From a bacterium (lineage in GTDB: Bacteria > Patescibacteriota > Gracilibacteria > Peribacterales > Peribacteraceae): 42,763 bases of DNA. Of this stretch, positions 6,970-42,587 are shown in pieces. The position numbers were made by a program, and so were the translations under genes. The DNA lies in the NCBI GenBank assembly GCA_029558515.1, contig JAKQEM010000024.1, forward strand, positions 121,164 to 163,926. Reading direction: 5' to 3'. Within the stretch, counting starts at the first letter, position 1. Each line of letters begins with the position of its first letter. The notes under the pieces were generated by a model. The model did no database searches. It was not told where the DNA came from and saw nothing but the letters and a program-made list of their open reading frames with translations.

Positions 6970-9702
6970 TTACTTTTCTCCTCTCTTCGCCGCCTTCTCC
7001 ACCGCATCCAGCATGCTCTTACTGGGAGCCGGAATACCGCCGGATTGCTCGAGCTTCCCCGCCAGATCCTGCATCGTCTTCCGCTCATCCTCCGAGAGTG
7101 CTTCCCCGAGCATCTCCCGCTTGCGCAGAGCATTGTACGCATTGAGCCACATCTCCCGATCGCGCCACGCGCGGTAGTCCTGCAGACTCATGCCCTTGGC
7201 CTTGGCCTTCTTGCGCTCCTCCTCCTCTTTTTCCTTCGATTTCTCCGCCGTCTTGGCAGCCGTCTTCGCTTCCGCGGCACCCGCCGCCCATCGCATGATC
7301 TTCTCCTCCACGATCGCACGCTTCTGCGCGTACCGCTCGCGGGAAAGATCGCGCAAGATCTGCAGACGGTTGTCATCCTGCTCGAACAGGGGAGGCGGAA
7401 GCGTGGCCACGGAAAAAGGCTTGCTGGGCACGCCGTCGATCATGAGACGCATGTACGCGTGATACTTGGGCAGGCTGAGGATGTCCTTCTGCGACACCAT
7501 TTCCTCAAACTGCAGGCTCAAATCCTCGGCGTCATCGGACCCCACCTGGAAGCTGATGAGCGACCCGACGTTTCCGAAGACCGCATCACGCAGAGACGTA
7601 TCATTCTGTCCGATGGTCAGTTGTCCGACGTACTGGTGCGCAACCGTCAGGGACAATCGATACTTGCGCGCTTCAGAGAGAATGGTCGCAAATGACTTGG
7701 TGGCGAAATTCTGGAACTCATCGACGTACAGGTAGAAGTCCCGGCGCTCCGCTTCCGGCATATCGGCGCGGCTCATGGCATCGATCTGGAACTTCGTCAC
7801 GAGCATGGAACCCAGGAAAGCCGACGTATCCTCCCCCAGTTTTCCTTTACTGAGATTCACCAGCACGATTTTGCCCGTGTCCATCGCGTGCCGCACGTCG
7901 AGGGTCGACCGCACCTGGCCCACGATGTTGCGAATGAGCGGCGTCGTCAGCAGTTGCCCGATTTTGTTCTGGATGGCGGCGATGGCTTCCGTCCGGTACT
8001 TGTCGCTCCACCCGGCGTACTCCGTCTCCCAGAAACTCTTCACGACGGGATCGGTGACCTTGGAAACGATCTTCGCGCGGTACGCGTCATCTCCGAACAT
8101 CCGGAGAATCCCGAGCATCGAAGACCCCTCGTTCTCCAGGAGCGCGAGCAAGGTATTGCGCAGGATGTGCTCCATGCGGCCGGAGAACGCCTCCGGCCAG
8201 AGTTTGGTGAAGACGCTCATGAGACCCGATGCGACGAGCGGGCGCTGATCGGGATTCGGCGCCTCCAGCATATTGAAGGAAATCGGGAAGTCGCGGTCGG
8301 ACGGATCAAAGAGGATGACATCGTTGCTGCGACCCTTGGGAATGAAACGCAGAATCGCTTCGATGAGATCGCCGTGCGGATCGATGACGCCGATGCCCTT
8401 CCCCGCGTGGATATCGCTGAAGATCATATTTTGCAGGAGCACGGATTTGCCCATACCCGTCTTGCCGATGGCATAGACGTGACGGCGACGATCATCCTGA
8501 CGAATCCCGAATTTCAGACGTTGACCGTGAAAAACAGCCTCACCCAGCACCGTCAAATCCTCCGCTTGATCGGTCATCCCGGGGACCGGCAGTTCCACGG
8601 GCGGTTCCAGTTTCTTACTGACGACCCAATCGATGTTCGGCGTTTTGACGAGGATGTTGGGAATATGCCAGAGCGTCGCGATTTCCTCCGCAGAGAGGAT
8701 GAAGCCCGGCTGCAGGAAGTTCGTCGGCAGTACCTTCAGTACCTTCACCGGCCCGACGGCAAATCCGTTGCACTGCGGCAGGGAGAACGGCCGGAAACTG
8801 CTCGCGATCTCCTGCATCTTCGCGATCGCCTCCTGCTTGCAGGACACAGGTGCGATGACGCTGACCCGCACGTTGGCGGCGAAAAGCAGACGGTTCAGTT
8901 TATCCACCGCACCCGTCACGCCGTCTTCCCGCTCATGGCTCCGCATGCTCGTTTTTTGCATTTCCTCTTCGGCGCTGCCTTCTGATAAAGTCGCCTCACC
9001 CGTGAACAGCGAAATGGAAGTCTGCGGCGTCATGCGCGCAAACCACACGCGCCATCCGCCCAGGAGGACATCGAACGGGAACAGCAGCAGACGCTTCGGC
9101 CCGCGCGCAAGGTGGGTGCGCGTGAAGAGCTTGGCGTACGCCGGCCAGTACTTGGAAATGCCGCGACCGAGGAACGGAACGAATTTCAGCGCGCGCTTGC
9201 GAAATCTGCCTCCGACGGGCTCGATGATCACTTGCACGTGCCCGCGCATTCCGGGCGTGGGATACCGCACCAGCGTCGATGTGATGCCGGCGATCGTATC
9301 AATGTTCTGCCGACTCATGAGATCGGAAAATTGCGGATAGCGCTTGATGGGGAACACTTCCGGATCGGTGAGGTGCAAATCCGCCGTCACGACGATCTCC
9401 CCCTCTTTGGCCGCAAACAGTTCCACGGGTACTTCGTCGATTTCCGCATCGGGGTACTGACCGTAGAGCTGACTCTCCACCAAACCGGATGCCGCCCGAG
9501 TGGAGCGCGTGAAGAGCGCGATCTTCCCGTCCGCAATGCCGATTTCCAGAGAAATCCTGCCCTGCTTCCCGCTGAGCGAATGCATCGATGAAAGCGCGGT
9601 CTCCATCATGAGCGGCCCGCGCTGCGCGCTGATCTCATCCGGATCGGGCAGACTCGGACGAATGCGAAGAAGGACGGTATCGGAAACGGGAGGAGATGCC
9701 AC
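6970..9702 (-). CDS. TraG/VirD4-type DNA transfer ATPase
   Basis: 910 residues from a GTG start (9700-9702). An N-terminal alpha/beta region of about 350 residues with no clear membrane helix precedes a RecA-like motor: Walker A IGKTGMGKSVLLQN (about 412-425), IDPHGDLIEAI soon after, and Walker B FYLYVDEFQNFATKSF (about 640-655), then TVAHQYVGQL, all typical of TraG/VirD4/TraD-like pumps. The last 120 residues are a Lys/Glu/Ala-rich coiled-coil (KEKEEEERKKAKAK) and a helical tail. Such ATPases move DNA or protein through type IV machines in conjugation or uptake, and are common as chromosomal genes in Patescibacteria. No pilus or mating-pair gene is in this window, so whether it serves DNA uptake, export or something else is unknown. 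TATACT 6 bases before the GTG suggests a leaderless mRNA. Confidence 0.88.
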   Translation of the reverse strand: MASPPVSDTVLLRIRPSLPDPDEISAQRGPLMMETALSSMHSLSGKQGRISLEIGIADGKIALFTRSTRAASGLVESQLYGQYPDAEIDEVPVELFAAKEGEIVVTADLHLTDPEVFPIKRYPQFSDLMSRQNIDTIAGITSTLVRYPTPGMRGHVQVIIEPVGGRFRKRALKFVPFLGRGISKYWPAYAKLFTRTHLARGPKRLLLFPFDVLLGGWRVWFARMTPQTSISLFTGEATLSEGSAEEEMQKTSMRSHEREDGVTGAVDKLNRLLFAANVRVSVIAPVSCKQEAIAKMQEIASSFRPFSLPQCNGFAVGPVKVLKVLPTNFLQPGFILSAEEIATLWHIPNILVKTPNIDWVVSKKLEPPVELPVPGMTDQAEDLTVLGEAVFHGQRLKFGIRQDDRRRHVYAIGKTGMGKSVLLQNMIFSDIHAGKGIGVIDPHGDLIEAILRFIPKGRSNDVILFDPSDRDFPISFNMLEAPNPDQRPLVASGLMSVFTKLWPEAFSGRMEHILRNTLLALLENEGSSMLGILRMFGDDAYRAKIVSKVTDPVVKSFWETEYAGWSDKYRTEAIAAIQNKIGQLLTTPLIRNIVGQVRSTLDVRHAMDTGKIVLVNLSKGKLGEDTSAFLGSMLVTKFQIDAMSRADMPEAERRDFYLYVDEFQNFATKSFATILSEARKYRLSLTVAHQYVGQLTIGQNDTSLRDAVFGNVGSLISFQVGSDDAEDLSLQFEEMVSQKDILSLPKYHAYMRLMIDGVPSKPFSVATLPPPLFEQDDNRLQILRDLSRERYAQKRAIVEEKIMRWAAGAAEAKTAAKTAEKSKEKEEEERKKAKAKGMSLQDYRAWRDREMWLNAYNALRKREMLGEALSEDERKTMQDLAGKLEQSGGIPAPSKSMLDAVEKAAKRGEK

Positions 9703-36866: not shown

Positions 36867-37772
36867 ATGTCATTCCTCCGTTTCTCCCGGCTCGCCCTTC
36901 CGCTCTCCGCGCTGCTGATCGTGGCGTCCTTCGTCGTTTTTTTCTCGCCGGGGCCGCAGGTGGGCATCGAATTCACGGGCGGCACGCTCATGGAACTGTC
37001 GCTGCCGGAGACCGCAACCCAGGAAGATCTCTCCGCCGCGGTCGCTTCTTTCCAGCGGGAAGGCGCACCTCTCCAGGGCGTTACGATCGCCCGCACACGC
37101 ACGGACAGCTACTTCCTCCGTACGCCGACCCTGAGCAGTGACGACCACACCGTCTTCCTCGCACACATCGAATCCTCCCTGGGAGAGGTGCAGGAACAGC
37201 AGTACACGACCATCGGCCCCACGGTGGGAAGCACCTTGCAGAAACGTGCTCTCTGGGCGCTGGTTGCGGCGGGCCTCGCGATCGTCCTCTACCTTGCCAT
37301 CGCCTTCCGCAAGATCCCCCGGCATCTGAGTCCGTGGAGTTTCGGCATCAGCGCCATCATCGCCCTCCTCCACGATGTCATCATCACCATCGGACTCTTC
37401 ACCGTCCTCAGCTGGTACACCACGTTCCAGATCGACACGCTCTTCATCACGGCGCTCCTCAGCATCATGGGGTACTCCGTGAGCGACACCATCGTCATCT
37501 TCGACCGCATCCGCGACAACCTGCTCCTGGAAGGGAGGAAGGGCGCGACCTTCGACGTCATCGCCGAACGCAGCCTGCTGCAGAGCTTCACCCGCACCAT
37601 CAATACGGGGCTCGGCGCACTCATCATGCTCTTCGCCCTCTTCTTCTTCGGATCGGAAAGTATCCGCTGGTTCATCCTCGCGCTCATCGCCGGCACGATC
37701 ATCGGCACCTACTCTTCCTACTTCGTCGCAACGCCGCTCTTGGTGCTGTGGCAGAAATGGAGGAAGAGTTGA
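36867..37772 (+). CDS. secF: Protein translocase subunit SecF
   Basis: 301 residues, normal for SecF, which with SecD uses the proton gradient to help export through SecYEG. TM1 about 9-27, then VGIEFTGGTLMELSLPE (about 33-49; the conserved FTGGT motif), an extracytoplasmic head domain to about 120, and five further membrane helices. The signature LLSIMGYSVSDTIVIFDRI (about 197-215) followed by RDN is intact. The end YFVATPLLVLWQKWRKS is repeated in diverged form at 39909-39969. secD is not adjacent: the upstream gene is a DUF3352-like protein, so secD must lie elsewhere. The toxin-antitoxin island starts right after the stop. Confidence 0.96.
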   Translation: MSFLRFSRLALPLSALLIVASFVVFFSPGPQVGIEFTGGTLMELSLPETATQEDLSAAVASFQREGAPLQGVTIARTRTDSYFLRTPTLSSDDHTVFLAHIESSLGEVQEQQYTTIGPTVGSTLQKRALWALVAAGLAIVLYLAIAFRKIPRHLSPWSFGISAIIALLHDVIITIGLFTVLSWYTTFQIDTLFITALLSIMGYSVSDTIVIFDRIRDNLLLEGRKGATFDVIAERSLLQSFTRTINTGLGALIMLFALFFFGSESIRWFILALIAGTIIGTYSSYFVATPLLVLWQKWRKS

Positions 37773-37792
37773 GGGTGAAGAGTAAAGAATAA
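37770..37792 (+). repeat. Short heptad spacer after secF
   Basis: Units GTTGAGG, GTGAAGA and GTAAAGA overlap the secF stop. Nearly the same units follow the secF-like fragment at 39964-39985. Confidence 0.4.
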
Positions 37793-38146
37793 TTACGACA
37801 AGGCAAAATGGGATCGCAGGTATGCTTTGATCTGTTCACCCCACTCACTGTCCAGATCACCGATCTTCTTCAGAAATCGTGAACGATCAAAACTGTGAAT
37901 GTGTTGTACTTTGACCAGTGTCGGTTTCCAGAGATGATTGCGCTCCGAGACAGGGATAAGAATGTCATACTCCCAACGCCTCTCTTTGTACGAACTCATC
38001 AACATCACGGTATACAGACCCTCACTCTTCGGAAGCCAATTCGCCTGTATCACCACGGCAGGTCTCTTGCCATGATACTCCCTGCCCACACTCGGATCAC
38101 TCTTCACCAGCCAAATTTCCAGAGGGTTGATCCGGCTAAAGGACAT
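37793..38146 (-). CDS. MazF/PemK-like mRNA interferase toxin
   Basis: 117 residues from ATG 38144-38146 (MSFSRINPLEIWLVK). The N-terminal pattern INPLEIWLVKSDPSVGREYHG then KRPAVVIQANWL is that of the MazF/PemK SH3-like barrel, with the Arg of GKRPAVVI in the active-site loop region. TVMLMSSYKERRWEYDILIP and TLVKVQHIHSFDRSRFLKK match the second half, and the length equals the family's. These toxins cut mRNA at short motifs and stop growth. It begins 11 bases inside the end of the upstream antitoxin gene (stop 38136-38138), a toxin-second order with translational coupling. An ATG at 38170 is a longer alternative. Its partner is the XRE-Panacea protein, not a MazE-like antitoxin. Confidence 0.82.
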   Translation of the reverse strand: MSFSRINPLEIWLVKSDPSVGREYHGKRPAVVIQANWLPKSEGLYTVMLMSSYKERRWEYDILIPVSERNHLWKPTLVKVQHIHSFDRSRFLKKIGDLDSEWGEQIKAYLRSHFALS

Positions 38147-39020
38147 GGCTGCGATCGGGAAGATTCTCATAATACCGGAGTTCTTCTGCGGACATCGGTT
38201 CCAAGTGCTGCTCGCTATCCATCGCAGCGGCATCCTGTGCCATGTGCAGCATCTCTGCTTCCGTCCGCAGGGCATAGGGCTCGGTGCGCATGTACACCAA
38301 TTCGTAGTCGATCGGCTGTCGGTGCTCCGTCGCTTCCCACGGCACATCACCATGAACGTACTCTTCAATCTGCGTCGCATTCATCAGACCGAGTTTCTCC
38401 GCGACCTCCTGAATCGTTCGATGTTCTTGCGCACTCAAGACGGCGGGATCAGGATCACAGAGCGGAATGTAGCGTGTTTGAGGCATCCCGAAATACTCAT
38501 GCAATACTTTGTTCAGCTGCTGCGCTTGCAGCATCTTCTCCACCACGGGAACAAAATGACTTAGCTGCGGAACAGGACCGAATTGCATGCGCTTGTACGT
38601 CATGCCGGTGATGGACTGTCCCGTTTTCTCGTAGTGATTGAAGTCGCAAAAATAAAGAAGCTTGTAGAGCACGGTCTCCCCCACGTTCGCATGTCCGCCG
38701 ACGAATTGCAAAAGCGTGAGGAGCAATTGACGCAACTTTTCGGGTTGGAAACGAACACCGGACTGCATCGTCTTCTCCTGTGGCTGTTTGCGCTGAGGTG
38801 CAAGAATATCGTCATAACTGATCTGCAGAAAGTTTGCGAGCGTATCAAGCTCCACCGCAGTCAGATCGCGCTTCCCCTGCTCCAGAAGTGAAATCGTCTG
38901 ACGATGTACGCCAAGAGCCTTTGCGACATCGTCCTGCGAAAGCTCACGATCCAGGCGAATCTTGCGTATGCGGATGCCTATTTCCTTTGGAGAAATGCCA
39001 ACCATACGCGCACGGTACAT
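38136..39020 (-). CDS. XRE-HTH / Panacea (DUF4065, SocA-like) antitoxin and repressor
   Basis: 294 residues from ATG 39018-39020; a second in-frame ATG lies at 39003-39005. The N-terminal XRE helix-turn-helix is IRKIRLDRELSQDDVAKALG then VHRQTISLLEQGKRDLTAVE (about 15-55). A basic linker (APQRKQPQEKT) leads to the Panacea domain from about 95: LLLTLLQFVGGHANVGETV, LYKLLYFCDFNHYEKTGQSI, GMTYKRMQFGPVPQLSHFVP. Panacea domains are known as promiscuous antitoxin modules that pair with many toxin folds. The C-terminal 90 residues are acidic. It overlaps the MazF-like gene by 11 bases. It probably represses its own promoter, where a GTTGCAAC palindrome (39034-39041) lies between the -10 and -35 boxes. 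Confidence 0.85.
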   Translation of the reverse strand: MYRARMVGISPKEIGIRIRKIRLDRELSQDDVAKALGVHRQTISLLEQGKRDLTAVELDTLANFLQISYDDILAPQRKQPQEKTMQSGVRFQPEKLRQLLLTLLQFVGGHANVGETVLYKLLYFCDFNHYEKTGQSITGMTYKRMQFGPVPQLSHFVPVVEKMLQAQQLNKVLHEYFGMPQTRYIPLCDPDPAVLSAQEHRTIQEVAEKLGLMNATQIEEYVHGDVPWEATEHRQPIDYELVYMRTEPYALRTEAEMLHMAQDAAAMDSEQHLEPMSAEELRYYENLPDRSHVL

Positions 39021-39026
39021 GATGCA

Positions 39027-39055
39027 ATCTTTTGTTGCAACGTTTTTATTGACAA
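39027..39055 (-). promoter_or_regulatory. Promoter of the first toxin-antitoxin pair
   Basis: On the minus strand TTGTCA (39050-39055), 17 bases, AAAGAT (39027-39032), 6 bases, ATG 39020. The spacer contains the palindrome GTTGCAAC (39034-39041), a possible operator. The -35 overlaps that of the divergent promoter. Confidence 0.6.
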
Positions 39056-39077
39056 GTATTCTGACGTGAAATATTAT
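39049..39077 (+). promoter_or_regulatory. Near-consensus leaderless promoter TTGACA-17-TATTAT
   Basis: TTGACA (39049-39054), 17 bases, TATTAT (39072-39077), then 6 bases to ATG 39084. It is the strongest promoter by consensus in the window and shares TGACA bases with the -35 of the divergent antitoxin promoter. Confidence 0.8.
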
Positions 39078-39083
39078 AAATGC

Positions 39084-39254
39084 ATGGCAACTAATCCACC
39101 AAAAGGTGACAAGCACAGACAGGGGGCTGTCCGTAACCGCACTCAATTCCTTAATCCTCTGACTGGCAAATGGACTAAGCAAGATACTGAAACCAGCAAG
39201 ATCCTGGATGTAAAGGCTGATAATTGCCCATTCAAGGGGGTGCGAAAGAAATAG
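39084..39254 (+). CDS. Small basic protein of a conserved uncharacterised family
   Basis: 56 residues from ATG 39084: it begins MATNPPKGDKHRQGAVRNRT, continues QFLNPLTGKWTKQDTETSKI and ends DVKADNCPFKGVRKK. The pattern PPKG-x-R-GAV-x-R-(S/T)Q, W-x-K-x-DT-x-T-x-K, DVK, PFKGVRKE is one I have seen in short uncharacterised proteins from many phyla, so this is a real gene despite its size. It is rich in Lys, Arg and Gly with no hydrophobic core, probably disordered or nucleic-acid bound. The promoter upstream is near consensus and the mRNA should be leaderless. The DUF4145 gene follows 23 bases later, probably in one operon. Function unknown. Confidence 0.75.
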   Translation: MATNPPKGDKHRQGAVRNRTQFLNPLTGKWTKQDTETSKILDVKADNCPFKGVRKK

Positions 39255-39277
39255 TTTTTCAATTTCCCCAATCCTAA

Positions 39278-39886
39278 ATGGAATTTAAAGGACACAGGTC
39301 CATATCCAAGCACGACGGCAGTACACATGATGCATGGCTGGAATATATATGCGGACACTGCAATACAAAGGTCTCTGGGGCCGTAATTTGTACCGAACAT
39401 AACAGTAGACCATTTATTAAATGGCTCCTTTGTCCCAATTGCAATAATGGCTCAGTGCAAGCGAGAGATGGAAACATATATCCCGGGGTGATGCTTGGTC
39501 CAAATATTGAAGGATTGCCTGAAGATATTCATTCCTCATATAACGAGGCAAGAAAATGTATGTCTGTGAATGCCTTTGCAGCAGCGGAATTAATCTGCAG
39601 AAAAACTCTCATGCACATTGCTGTGGAAAAGGGGGCAAAGGAGGGTGATACCTTTGCCAACTACATCGACTTCCTCGCAAATGCAGGTTATGTTACGCCA
39701 CCCATGAAGGGATGGGTCTCTCTGATCAAAGATCACGGCAATAATTCCACGCATAAACTTGAAAAAGTTGAAAAGGATCGTGCGGAGGGAACGGTTATGT
39801 TTACAGCCGAACTACTCAGATTGATTTACGAGATGGCTCACATGTCGAAGAAGTACAGTCCTCCAAAAAATGAAACTACGAAATAG
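39278..39886 (+). CDS. Zinc-ribbon plus DUF4145 protein
   Basis: 202 residues. The N-terminal part has two Cys pairs, CGHC (about 25-28) and CPNC (about 52-55), which fit a zinc ribbon. From about 75 the DUF4145 pattern appears: GLPEDIHSSYNEARKCMSVN, AFAAAELICRKTLMHIAVEK, TFANYIDFLANAGYVTPPMK, WVSLIKDHGNNSTHKLEKVE, then a closing helix AELLRLIYEMAHMSKKY. DUF4145 domains often occur in or beside restriction enzymes and other defence proteins, and their role is not settled. It is 23 bases after the small protein gene and ends 23 bases before the secF-like fragment. The lower GC matches the rest of the island. A defence-related role is inference. Confidence 0.78.
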   Translation: MEFKGHRSISKHDGSTHDAWLEYICGHCNTKVSGAVICTEHNSRPFIKWLLCPNCNNGSVQARDGNIYPGVMLGPNIEGLPEDIHSSYNEARKCMSVNAFAAAELICRKTLMHIAVEKGAKEGDTFANYIDFLANAGYVTPPMKGWVSLIKDHGNNSTHKLEKVEKDRAEGTVMFTAELLRLIYEMAHMSKKYSPPKNETTK

Positions 39887-39908
39887 CCCCCATACTCTTC
39901 GATCACTG

Positions 39909-39969
39909 CACCTCCTACTTCATCGCCACGCCGCTGCTGGTTGCGTGGCAAGCGTGGAGGAAGAGTTGA
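39909..39969 (+). pseudogene. Diverged duplicate of the secF 3' end
   Basis: The sequence encodes SYFIATPLLVAWQAWRKS and a stop, against SYFVATPLLVLWQKWRKS at the true secF end. About 80% of 69 aligned bases match, including roughly ten bases past the stop. Most changes do not alter chemical character. It has no start and is only a fragment. It suggests that the island carried a foreign secF end or was rearranged next to secF. Confidence 0.75.
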
Positions 39970-39985
39970 GAGTGGAGAGTTGGAC
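39964..39985 (+). repeat. Short heptad run after the secF-like fragment
   Basis: GTTGAGA, GTGGAGA and GTTGGAC parallel the GTTGAGG, GTGAAGA, GTAAAGA units after secF. Confidence 0.4.
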
Positions 39986-39993
39986 GTACTGCA

Positions 39994-40018
39994 AACTTGT
40001 AAGGATTCCTTACAAGTT
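39994..40018. repeat. Perfect 25-base palindrome
   Basis: AACTTGTAAGGA, a central T, and TCCTTACAAGTT. It lies 120 bases before the second toxin gene and 25 bases after the secF-like fragment. It could be a rho-independent-type stem without a T-run, or an operator or recombination site. Confidence 0.7.
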
Positions 40019-40113: not shown

Positions 40114-40560
40114 ATGAATGTCTTCTGCCTCCAAGCCTCCGCGCATCCCAAGGCCTTTGCAAGGCTGCTCGCAGAGCTCGCTCAACAAGAAGATGAAGAC
40201 ACGCTTGCGAAGATCCTTACCACCATCGCTCACGTTGCACGTGTCGGCGGCCACCCACAGGAACCGGCAGCGCGCAGGCTCAGCGGCGTGGACATGTGCG
40301 AAATACGGTCCAAGTACCGCCGCGGCGAACTCATCCGCATCTACTACTTCGTCGATAAAAAAAGCGACAAAATGCTCCTTCTCAATTCCATCATAAAGCC
40401 GGACGGATCGCATAAGCCGTCACGGTACGAGGGGAACGCCGGCAAACGTCTGGAAAAAGACCTTCAAGAATCCATTGCCCTCGCACTTCAACTCAAAGAA
40501 CTTTTCCCTTCTTCCTCTCCTCAATATGACTCCCTCCCCACTCTCCTCCAAACTCTCTAA
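40114..40560 (+). CDS. RelE/HigB-type (phage Gp49-like) toxin
   Basis: 148 residues from ATG 40114. The N-terminal 50 residues are helical (RLLAELAQQEDEDTLAKILT). The toxin core is from about 58: LSGVDMCEIRSKYRRGELIR, IYYFVDKKSDKMLLLNSIIK, then a basic segment PDGSHKPSRYEGNAGKRLEK and a closing helix ESIALALQLKELF. The order strand-Arg-rich loop-strand fits the RelE/ParE/HigB fold in its Gp49-like form. Such toxins cut mRNA on the ribosome. The gene comes before its antitoxin, as in higBA, and overlaps it by 35 bases if the antitoxin starts at 40526. The start is uncertain because TATAAT directly precedes the ATG; an in-frame TTG at 40087 is less likely. Confidence 0.75.
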   Translation: MNVFCLQASAHPKAFARLLAELAQQEDEDTLAKILTTIAHVARVGGHPQEPAARRLSGVDMCEIRSKYRRGELIRIYYFVDKKSDKMLLLNSIIKPDGSHKPSRYEGNAGKRLEKDLQESIALALQLKELFPSSSPQYDSLPTLLQTL

Positions 40561-41227
40561 GATGATGCAATCAGAGAGCTTTCGCGCGAAATCCGCTCAC
40601 CACAAGCGGATGATTCTCCTTGCGGAAAAAATCTTCGGCCGCCGGAAGGATCTTAATTTCTCACAGTGGGAACTCGCTGCAAAAGCAGGAACGACTCAGA
40701 GAATTATCAGTGAACTCGAGAATGCATCCTATGCACCGGAAAACGGTATAGGTATGGAACTCTACGACAAGCTTGCAGAGGCTCTGGAAATTGATCGTGA
40801 CTACCTTCTGTCTGACAAAATCGACCGCAAGACGTTTGAACTATATTCATACATCGGTGCAAAGTTGGACTGGCATTGGGACATCATGCAATTCATGAAA
40901 TTACCGTACTTCATCGATCTGGAAATGACAAAAGCGCTTGGTTTTCAACTCTCCAATCTATCGTATATCCGCCACAACTACGGCCCATTCGATAAAAGCA
41001 TGTACGCATACAGAACTCTGTTTGAGGGTAAATCATACGAGCTCCGGCTTTCATATATTCAGGACTTCATGGATGTCATCAACAAAACACTCGACGCTTT
41101 GCCGATACGAAACGGGGAAAAGCTGAAATTATTATCGTATGAAACAGAGCCGATGAAGCGCCTCGGTGCAACGCTTGGTGGAAAAGAGGGATGGAATGAG
41201 AAACTCATGATGAACGCCAAGCAATAA
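40526..41227 (+). CDS. XRE-HTH / Panacea-like antitoxin and repressor
   Basis: 233 residues from ATG 40526 (MTPSPLSSKLSKMMQSESF); ATG 40562, one base after the toxin stop, is an alternative. The helix-turn-helix is LNFSQWELAAKAGTTQRIIS then ELENASYAPENGIGMELYDK (about 48-85). From about 110 a Panacea-type domain reads WDIMQFMKLPYFIDLEMTKA, LGFQLSNLSYIRHNYGPFDK and SMYAYRTLF, matching the K-L-Y-x-x-D ... GP-(V/F) layout of DUF4065. It is more divergent and shorter than the antitoxin at 38136-39020 and only distantly similar to it. It probably neutralises the HigB-like toxin and represses the shared promoter through the palindrome at 40094-40111. Confidence 0.78.
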   Translation: MTPSPLSSKLSKMMQSESFRAKSAHHKRMILLAEKIFGRRKDLNFSQWELAAKAGTTQRIISELENASYAPENGIGMELYDKLAEALEIDRDYLLSDKIDRKTFELYSYIGAKLDWHWDIMQFMKLPYFIDLEMTKALGFQLSNLSYIRHNYGPFDKSMYAYRTLFEGKSYELRLSYIQDFMDVINKTLDALPIRNGEKLKLLSYETEPMKRLGATLGGKEGWNEKLMMNAKQ

Positions 41228-41239
41228 TGTGCTCCAATC

Positions 41240-41306
41240 CCCGTATATTTCCCATTTCGCATTTCGCATTTCTTCCCTATCCTTCCCGTCCCGTTCCCCT
41301 TTTCCT
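41240..41306 (+). repeat. Heptad-period pyrimidine-rich spacer before tig
   Basis: Units such as ATTTCCC, ATTTCGC (twice), ATTTCTT, CCCTATC, CTTCCCG and TCCCGTT run up to the tig ATG. TATCCT (about 41278-41283) could be the -10 box. Confidence 0.5.
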
Positions 41307-42587
41307 ATGCCCGCAACCCCGCCGACCATCGAACGCCTCAAGCAGTCTCGCATCCGGGCCACCGTGACGTTTACCGTGGAGGAAGTGGCGAAAGCCGAGG
41401 AACAGGCGCTGCGGGAGATGGGACAATCCATCATGATCAAGGGGTTTCGGCCGGGACATGCGCCGATCGCAACGGTACGCGAACGTGTCACGAAAGAAGC
41501 GCTGACCGAGCAGACCATCCGCGGACTCATGAAAACGGCGCTCCCCGCGCTCATCGAGGAGCACAAGATCGTCCCCGTCATCCCGCCCAAGGTGGAAGTC
41601 ATCGGCAGAGAACCGATGGTGCTGGCGATTCTCTTCGTCGAGCGACCGGAAGTGACGGTCAAGAATGCCGATACGCTGGCGCCCGCGAAGAAGGAAATCA
41701 CGGTGGACCCAAAAGACGTGGAGCGCGTGATCGAAGGGCTGCGCCGTGAGCACAGACGCAAGCAGGAAGTTGATCGCAGTACGAAGGAAGGCGATGATGT
41801 GACGATCGATTTCTCCGCGACCGATGCGGACGGAAAAGAGATCGCGGGACTGCGCGGGACCGATGAGGAAGTGACGATCGGATCTCAGACATTCCTGCCG
41901 GGATTCGAAGACGCGCTGCAGGGAACGAAGAAAGGCGAGGAGAAAACATTCACCCTGACACTGCCGGAGAAATTCCCCGTGGAGGCGCTGCGCACCAAGC
42001 CCGCGTCGTTTCATGTGACCGTGAAGAAAGTGGAGGAAAACGAGCTGCCGGAACTGACCGACGCCTTCGTGCAGAAGGTCTTCGGACAACCCACGGCGGA
42101 GGCTTTGCGCACGCGAGTGACATCCTCCATCCGCATGCAGGAAGAGCAACACGATCGGATGGAACGCGAGCGAAAATTGCTGGAGGAAATTCGCAAGCGC
42201 ACCACGGTCGACCTTGCCGAGGAACTGCTGGAAACGGAGGTGGGAGACATGGTGCACGAATGGTCAACGCGACTGGAACGGCAGGGCACGACTATCGCGG
42301 AAGCGCTCCGGAAGGAGGGAAAGACCGTGGAACAGGCGGAGCAGGAACTGAAGACACAGGCGCTGGAGCGATGGAAGCTGCGCCTGGGACTGCAGAAACT
42401 CATCGAAATGAAGGCCATCCATGTCACCGAGGAAGAAGTGGAGCAAGCGTTTGCGCAGGCATTGCAGCAGATGCCAAAAGACCGCCAAGAGGATGCGAAG
42501 AAGGAATGGCAGCAGCGCGGTGCGGCATATCAGGAACTGCGCTGGCGGACGCTCGTGGAGAAAGCGATCGATGCGCTGCTGGCATAG
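41307..42587 (+). CDS. tig: Trigger factor (ribosome-associated chaperone, peptidyl-prolyl isomerase)
   Basis: 426 residues, close to the usual 430. The N-terminal ribosome-binding domain carries the signature GFRPGHAPIATVRERV (about 46-61). The FKBP-type PPIase domain follows (about 155-245): EGDDVTIDFSATDADGKEI, TIGSQTFLPGFEDALQGTKK and GEEKTFTLTLPEKFP. The long helical C-terminal chaperone arms run from about 250 (ELPELTDAFVQKVFGQPT) to the end. It binds L23 at the tunnel exit and shields new chains. The start at ATG 41307 follows from family alignment; the in-frame codons upstream are heptad spacer. It follows the toxin-antitoxin island; clpP/clpX, frequent partners, are not in the window. 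Confidence 0.95.
   Translation: MPATPPTIERLKQSRIRATVTFTVEEVAKAEEQALREMGQSIMIKGFRPGHAPIATVRERVTKEALTEQTIRGLMKTALPALIEEHKIVPVIPPKVEVIGREPMVLAILFVERPEVTVKNADTLAPAKKEITVDPKDVERVIEGLRREHRRKQEVDRSTKEGDDVTIDFSATDADGKEIAGLRGTDEEVTIGSQTFLPGFEDALQGTKKGEEKTFTLTLPEKFPVEALRTKPASFHVTVKKVEENELPELTDAFVQKVFGQPTAEALRTRVTSSIRMQEEQHDRMERERKLLEEIRKRTTVDLAEELLETEVGDMVHEWSTRLERQGTTIAEALRKEGKTVEQAEQELKTQALERWKLRLGLQKLIEMKAIHVTEEEVEQAFAQALQQMPKDRQEDAKKEWQQRGAAYQELRWRTLVEKAIDALLA

Follow-up and report, generated by a model that had tools for sequence, protein, structure and literature searches.

A diverged secF 3′ end between two cargo blocks at the secF–tig junction of a Candidatus Peribacteria genome

Introduction

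Uncultured Patescibacteria have small genomes, and the route by which defence and toxin–antitoxin genes enter them with no mobile element in sight is poorly understood. Here, we describe a 3.5-kb interval between secF and tig, the trigger factor gene, in a 1.31-Mb Candidatus Peribacteria genome (G000; completeness 99.28, contamination 0.42), in which a diverged second copy of the secF 3′ end lies between two blocks of cargo genes. The stretch of DNA that was analysed, hereafter the window, comprises 42,763 nucleotides (G000:C44:121164-163926), and the genome comes from uncultured material; its named relatives are Peribacteria/Peregrinibacteria metagenome-assembled genomes. A gene-end remnant lodged between cargo blocks would be a readable scar, one that marks where a single acquisition ended and whose divergence identifies a related species as the partner.

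The stray secF 3′ end

The interval reads, from left to right, as an intact secF, a first block of cargo (a PemK–PanA pair, a PDC-S38 protein and a DUF4145 protein), the secF fragment, a second block (a HigB-like toxin and a PanA-like antitoxin) and tig. The genes between the two secF ends are those that a first-pass annotation of the window had described.

The secF tail copy is real. Positions 39913-39969 encode SYFIATPLLVAWQAWRKS plus a stop, as against SYFVATPLLVLWQKWRKS plus a stop in the last 18 codons of secF at 37716-37772, and over these codons and the stop the two are identical at 46/57 bases. By comparison, the next-best ungapped match to the secF tail, whether in the interval or in the rest of the window, reaches 29/57, and the maximum in 30 shuffles was 32, so that the copy reported by the annotation lies far above what shuffling yields. 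When 11 bases past each stop are included, 37716-37783 and 39913-39980 share 81% identity over 68 bases; the coordinates first given for the copy were a few bases generous, while the copy itself stands at 39913-39980. A repeat finder returned the same relationship as a 98-nt pair (72% identity, spacing 2197), and a tblastn search with the whole of SecF against its own genome recovered the fragment at E 3.1e-4, with 63% identity over residues 278-301. The longest identical stretch between the two ends, 16 bases, lies inside the tail, and another measures 9 bases. Upstream of 39913, weak gapped similarity runs back to about 39883 with small indels and a frameshift and is treated as uncertain, and at the seam itself (~39,886-39,913) there are only short matches. 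No third secF copy was found before tig.

The composition of the interval sets the fragment apart from its neighbours. G+C content is 42–53% in block 1 and 46–54% in block 2, compared with 58.5% in the fragment and 60–62% in secF and tig, so that in composition the fragment resembles the host, while the blocks on either side of it look foreign. The fragment is a secF end, as had been claimed, and not a secD end; secD was considered as its source and rejected, the only secD hit being a separate one on contig C38 with 22% identity and no overlap with the fragment.

The similarity that the annotation saw beyond both stops is present over about 11 bases. This GAGTGGAGAGT-like sequence falls within a heptad motif, GAGTTGAGAGTGGAGAGT, which recurs exactly at two further unrelated intergenic sites of the genome and as near-copies at many more. 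Because the motif belongs to degenerate 7-bp repeats scattered genome-wide, the post-stop similarity is weak evidence alone, and it was rejected as a sign of a longer homologous stretch. These tandem repeats, of the GAGAGTT/GAGAGTG, CCCAAAT, CGCATTT and CGTCCTT types, abut stops or precede starts at many intergenic sites, among them C44:87577-87601, C44:107496-107534, C44:73374-73398, C31:12835 and C38:22834, as well as 37769-37783, 39966-39980 and 41250-41285 within the window. They resemble the heptad repeats of cyanobacteria.

Table 1. Features from secF to tig (window coordinates; ORF, open reading frame; HTH, helix-turn-helix)
Feature	Position	Strand	Evidence
secF, intact, 301 aa	36867..37772	+	ORF; homologues across family
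secF 3′ end plus 11 bases past stop, reference copy of repeat	37716..37783	+	Repeat search, alignment
PemK/MazF-like toxin	37793..38173	-	Pfam PF02452, E 5.9e-19
XRE-HTH plus SocA/Panacea-domain antitoxin (PanA-like)	38136..39020	-	Pfam PF13274, E 5e-19; HTH_3
Small 56-aa protein, PADLOC model PDC-S38 (candidate defence)	39084..39254	+	E 3.2e-27, residues 61-115 of longer ORF
DUF4145 protein, weak PD-T7-4 match	39278..39886	+	PF13643, E 5.5e-14; PADLOC PD-T7-4, E 1.4e-7
Possible degenerate, indel-bearing extension of secF copy on upstream side; junction with DUF4145 block; uncertain	39883..39912	+	Gapped alignment
Diverged secF 3′ end copy (SYFIATPLLVAWQAWRKS plus stop) and 11 bases past stop	39913..39980	+	Repeat search, tblastn, alignment, decay simulation
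25-bp near-perfect palindrome, AACTTGTAAGGATTCCTTACAAGTT	39994..40018		Single copy in genome
Gp49/HigB-like toxin candidate, weak	40114..40560	+	PF05973, E 5.7e-4; 20.3 bits, cut-off 23.9
XRE-HTH plus Panacea-like antitoxin candidate	40526..41227	+	HTH_3, E 5.8e-6; SocA_Panacea, E 2.9e-5, 25.4 bits, cut-off 25.7
tig (trigger factor), right border of hotspot	41307..42587	+	ORF; adjoins secF in relatives

The secF–tig junction in related genomes

The genes secF and tig are neighbours in this family. The gap between them was surveyed at 69 loci with both ends readable, three of which are second reads of an already counted genome, and in 61 it measures at most 370 bp (0–370), mostly under 100 bp. 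Since some 60 Peribacteria relatives have gaps of this size, the 3.5-kb interval of the window is acquired, and on this point the annotation was right. The comparison of sister genomes that it had called for was run at family level, among genomes of genera other than that of the window, and it found empty junctions in most of the relatives.

The junction is an occasional hotspot for cargo in Peribacteria. Besides the 3.5 kb of the window, gene-sized inserts occur in G012/L052 (2.6 kb), G003/L061 (0.96 kb), G023/L028 (1.1 kb), G074/L063 (0.8 kb), G066/L137 (1.65 kb) and G010/L168 (1.66 kb). No copy of the secF end is present in the five relatives whose insert is a single gene. In L052, the secF locus of G012, the order is secF, an inserted gene, an exact 34-bp copy of the locus's own secF end including the stop, a second inserted gene and tig, with no further copy before tig; G059, a genus sister of G012, has an empty junction of 59 bp. 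Thus, a tail copy accompanies 2/2 two-block inserts and 0/5 one-block inserts. The copy begins 11 codons from the end of secF in L052 and 18 in the window. The DNA just past both secF stops of L052 is alike beyond chance (0.002), as if both inserted genes had once occupied one slot.

Scars of this kind were found nowhere else in the material searched. A survey of 40 secF loci outside the family but within the class, at which tig does not follow secF, turned up no tail copy. A search of 302 kb from the genome of the window, together with 153 kb from G012, gave no other clear duplication of a gene 3′ end, barring tRNAs, heptad repeats and gene duplications, and 556 kb of Peribacteria loci centred on secF held no comparable gene-end duplication outside secF. 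The ingredients of the scar are ordinary; what is unusual is the occurrence of two independent cases at one junction.

The second case also bears on whether the contig was assembled correctly. Two secF ends that look like alleles of different species, in a genome from uncultured material, are what one might see if sequences of two strains, or of two species, in the same metagenome had been joined into a chimeric contig. However, the sequence at the seam is unique and offers no long shared stretch where an assembler could have switched, the longest identity lying within the tail, and the completeness and contamination values speak against a mixed genome. L052, assembled independently, has the same anatomy, and an artefact is very improbable.

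Origin of the fragment

Ends reading WRKS plus a stop are restricted to the local secF and the fragment and are absent from about 70 relatives, which points to the window lineage, or a close one, as the source of the fragment. One such source would be the neighbouring gene itself, its end duplicated by replication slippage, or together with cargo in tandem, and subsequently left to decay. A local event of this sort is possible in L052, where the copy of the locus's own secF end is exact and the leaders of the two inserted genes are alike. Simple tandem duplication was nevertheless rejected for that locus, because the two genes themselves have only coiled-coil composition in common (BLASTP E 0.001). 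Likewise, the two cargo blocks of the window share no sequence and differ in orientation.

The substitutions in the fragment also argue against decay. When the first 36 bases were compared with 68 other secF ends of the family, the match was 24.01 for the fragment and 24.22 for the local secF, so that copy and working gene conform equally well to the family consensus. Simulated random decay by seven changes in 36 bases gave an expected match of 20.3 +/- 1.0, and the share of simulations reaching the fragment's score was 0.0004, in either direction and under any transition bias tried; the relatives are not independent of one another, though the simulation used the identical set. In addition, 5/8 of the codons that differ between the fragment and the local secF are synonymous, as occurred in 2.4% of neutral simulations. 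Taken together, these simulations suggest that selection was still acting on each of the two as a secF end when they diverged.

Judged by this pattern of substitution, the fragment would not be a product of local duplication and decay, a route that we regard as quite unlikely overall. It has the look of a 3′ end from a different working secF, probably a congeneric one, and hence appears to come from the secF of a related species. A fragment that behaves in this way fits the topology envisaged in the annotation, with a replacement end on the gene and a displaced end beyond the cargo.

How the scar could have formed

One way to obtain such a topology is through site-specific integration. An element integrating into the secF 3′ end would bring a replacement end and displace the native one to its far side, its integrase having since been lost or supplied in trans, and what remains would be a remnant similar to a cis-mobilizable element (CIME), as at the 3′ ends of fda, guaA and trmE. 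Elements that insert at the 3′ ends of housekeeping genes and accrete in tandem are well known (PMC5704250). The similarity here does start abruptly inside an otherwise intact secF, the displaced end does lie beyond block 1, the two ends differ in the manner of functional genes, and the identical 9- and 16-base stretches could represent a core. The likeness to integrative and conjugative, integrative and mobilizable and cis-mobilizable elements, such as ICESt1, SGI1 and those of guaA and trmE, extends to a second gene-end copy inside the array and to cargo, which often comprises toxin–antitoxin and defence genes (PMC5704250). Unlike those elements, the interval has no integrase, and its copy is 20% diverged.

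Several further observations weigh against this mechanism, which the annotation had proposed. No recombinase occurs in or near the interval, and the genome's only two tyrosine recombinases are Xer/integron-like and lie on contigs C38 and C24 (serine recombinases were not searched genome-wide). Direct repeats that could serve as attachment sites do flank block 1, as one diverged pair, with none flanking block 2 and none at the single inserts of relatives. No far-end repeat precedes tig in single or double inserts, the five single-gene inserts lack a displaced end, and the copy in L052 begins at a different position from that in the window. Site-specific integration is the main rival to the reading preferred below, and we consider it unlikely, although a real contender.

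Another way would be through integron-like cassettes, with the secF tail acting as the recombination site. The order of cargo, tail and cargo does recall a cassette array, and a 276-aa tyrosine recombinase of the genome (L229:226-1056, on C38) has the integron integrase as its best NCBIfam model, at 217 bits and thus below the cut-off of 265. On the other hand, neither the window interval nor L052 contains paired RYYYAAC/GTTRRRY core sites 45-150 apart, Rfam gave no match there, no tail follows the last cargo and the integrase is encoded on another contig, all of which make cassette recombination the most far-fetched of the explanations weighed here.

The stray secF end is most likely a recombination seam rather than the product of an integrase-driven insertion. 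In particular, recombination anchored at one end could have stacked alternative cargo at the secF–tig hotspot, a mechanism in which we place about even confidence. Incoming DNA from a related species would carry its own secF together with cargo. On one side, homologous recombination would take place between the incoming secF and the resident one. On the other side, immediately past its cargo, the incoming DNA would be attached with no homology involved, within the final codons of the resident secF, and these codons would remain as a dead tail ahead of the resident cargo. The essential secF would have survived because the incoming DNA supplied a whole secF end. In the mirror case, with the incoming DNA anchored in tig, the same anatomy would result, and both genes could offer a border of long homology. 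No integrase would be needed. Moreover, stacking of this kind predicts that copies should start at variable positions and that tails should occur only where two or more units of cargo are stacked; the different starting codons of the two copies (18 and 11) fit a non-homologous end. We infer the mechanism from the anatomy that is shown, namely an interval that was acquired, a tail copy lying at its seam, the divergence typical of functional genes and the second genome.

In homology-facilitated illegitimate recombination (HFIR), as described in the competent bacteria S. pneumoniae, A. baylyi and P. stutzeri, one end is joined by homology and the other illegitimately (PMC3240628). On the stacking reading, the window would resemble those cases in an insertion made without an integrase, in having one border in homologous DNA (here secF or tig) and the other without long homology, and in a small replacement at the border. 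It differs in that HFIR is known from laboratory transformants, whereas here it is deduced from the scar that it would have left in bacteria not yet cultured. In addition, microhomology of 3-10 bp, as reported for HFIR, could not be located with certainty at the window seam, nor has a gene-end remnant been described as typical of the process (PMC3240628).

Several points count against stacking. There are only two cases, the window and L052, and the contrast between two-block and one-block inserts comes from small numbers, with the copy itself forming part of how the two classes are defined. The exact 34-bp copy in L052 would require a conspecific donor. The decay test is built on only seven differences in 36 bases. 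No congener was among the genomes compared, and neither the donor nor the state before the event was seen. The genome does encode the competence protein ComEC (PF03772, E 6.7e-52), the only one searched for, and this indicates a potential for DNA uptake only. We know of no demonstration of HFIR in Patescibacteria.

If stacking did take place, it is conceivable that the secF 3′ end of Peribacteria is a recurrent port for cargo that requires no integrase. Each new acquisition would then arrive with a secF end of its own while the older end stayed behind as a tail, and the tails would give a tally of how many acquisitions are stacked between secF and tig. We offer this generalization as speculative and, on present evidence, doubtful. 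Should the pattern hold up, such tails could help to locate acquisitions made without an integrase, and to place them in sequence, in genomes that are beyond experiment.

Cargo genes and other repeats

The toxin–antitoxin pair of block 1 consists of a Panacea-domain antitoxin adjoining a toxin, with overlapping genes, which is the arrangement that defines Panacea pairs. PemK-type partners have been reported for Panacea antitoxins (PMC8832971), and the window agrees in having an XRE–Panacea antitoxin next to a PemK/MazF-type toxin. The second pair differs from the published ones in that its antitoxin falls just under the Panacea cut-off and its toxin is a weak Gp49-like candidate; its function as a toxin–antitoxin pair is putative. 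A search of the literature for toxin–antitoxin systems in Peribacteria found no paper. The DUF4145 protein has no good homologue among 73 genomes of the family.

A paralogue of the first Panacea antitoxin, 74% identical to it, is encoded on another contig (C39:37231-38106). It belongs, with a PemK-type toxin, to the end of an operon on the same contig (L206:697-8462), which encodes a methyltransferase, an AAA ATPase and a helicase-like protein in a type III restriction-like arrangement and is situated behind a tRNA-like sequence. Homologues of the window's antitoxin in several Peribacteria genera (L181, L182, L183, L185, L187 and L188) contain one in-frame TAG inside the match, which may be a real stop with a read-through alignment, or something else.

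The 25-bp palindrome downstream of the fragment lies upstream of the second pair and is perhaps an operator of it. It was also considered as the end of a mobile element and rejected, as it occurs once in the genome. A shorter palindrome, ATACCC-TATT-GGGTAT, overlaps the likely promoter of the same pair.

Other kinds of repeats were seen in further genomes. L061 contains a dispersed 153-nt intergenic repeat (1331-1483 and 8561-8704; 85% identity), and in two genomes exact 127-bp direct repeats lie about 227 bp apart, within or at the end of coding regions (L060:3388-3741 and L100:1582-1935).

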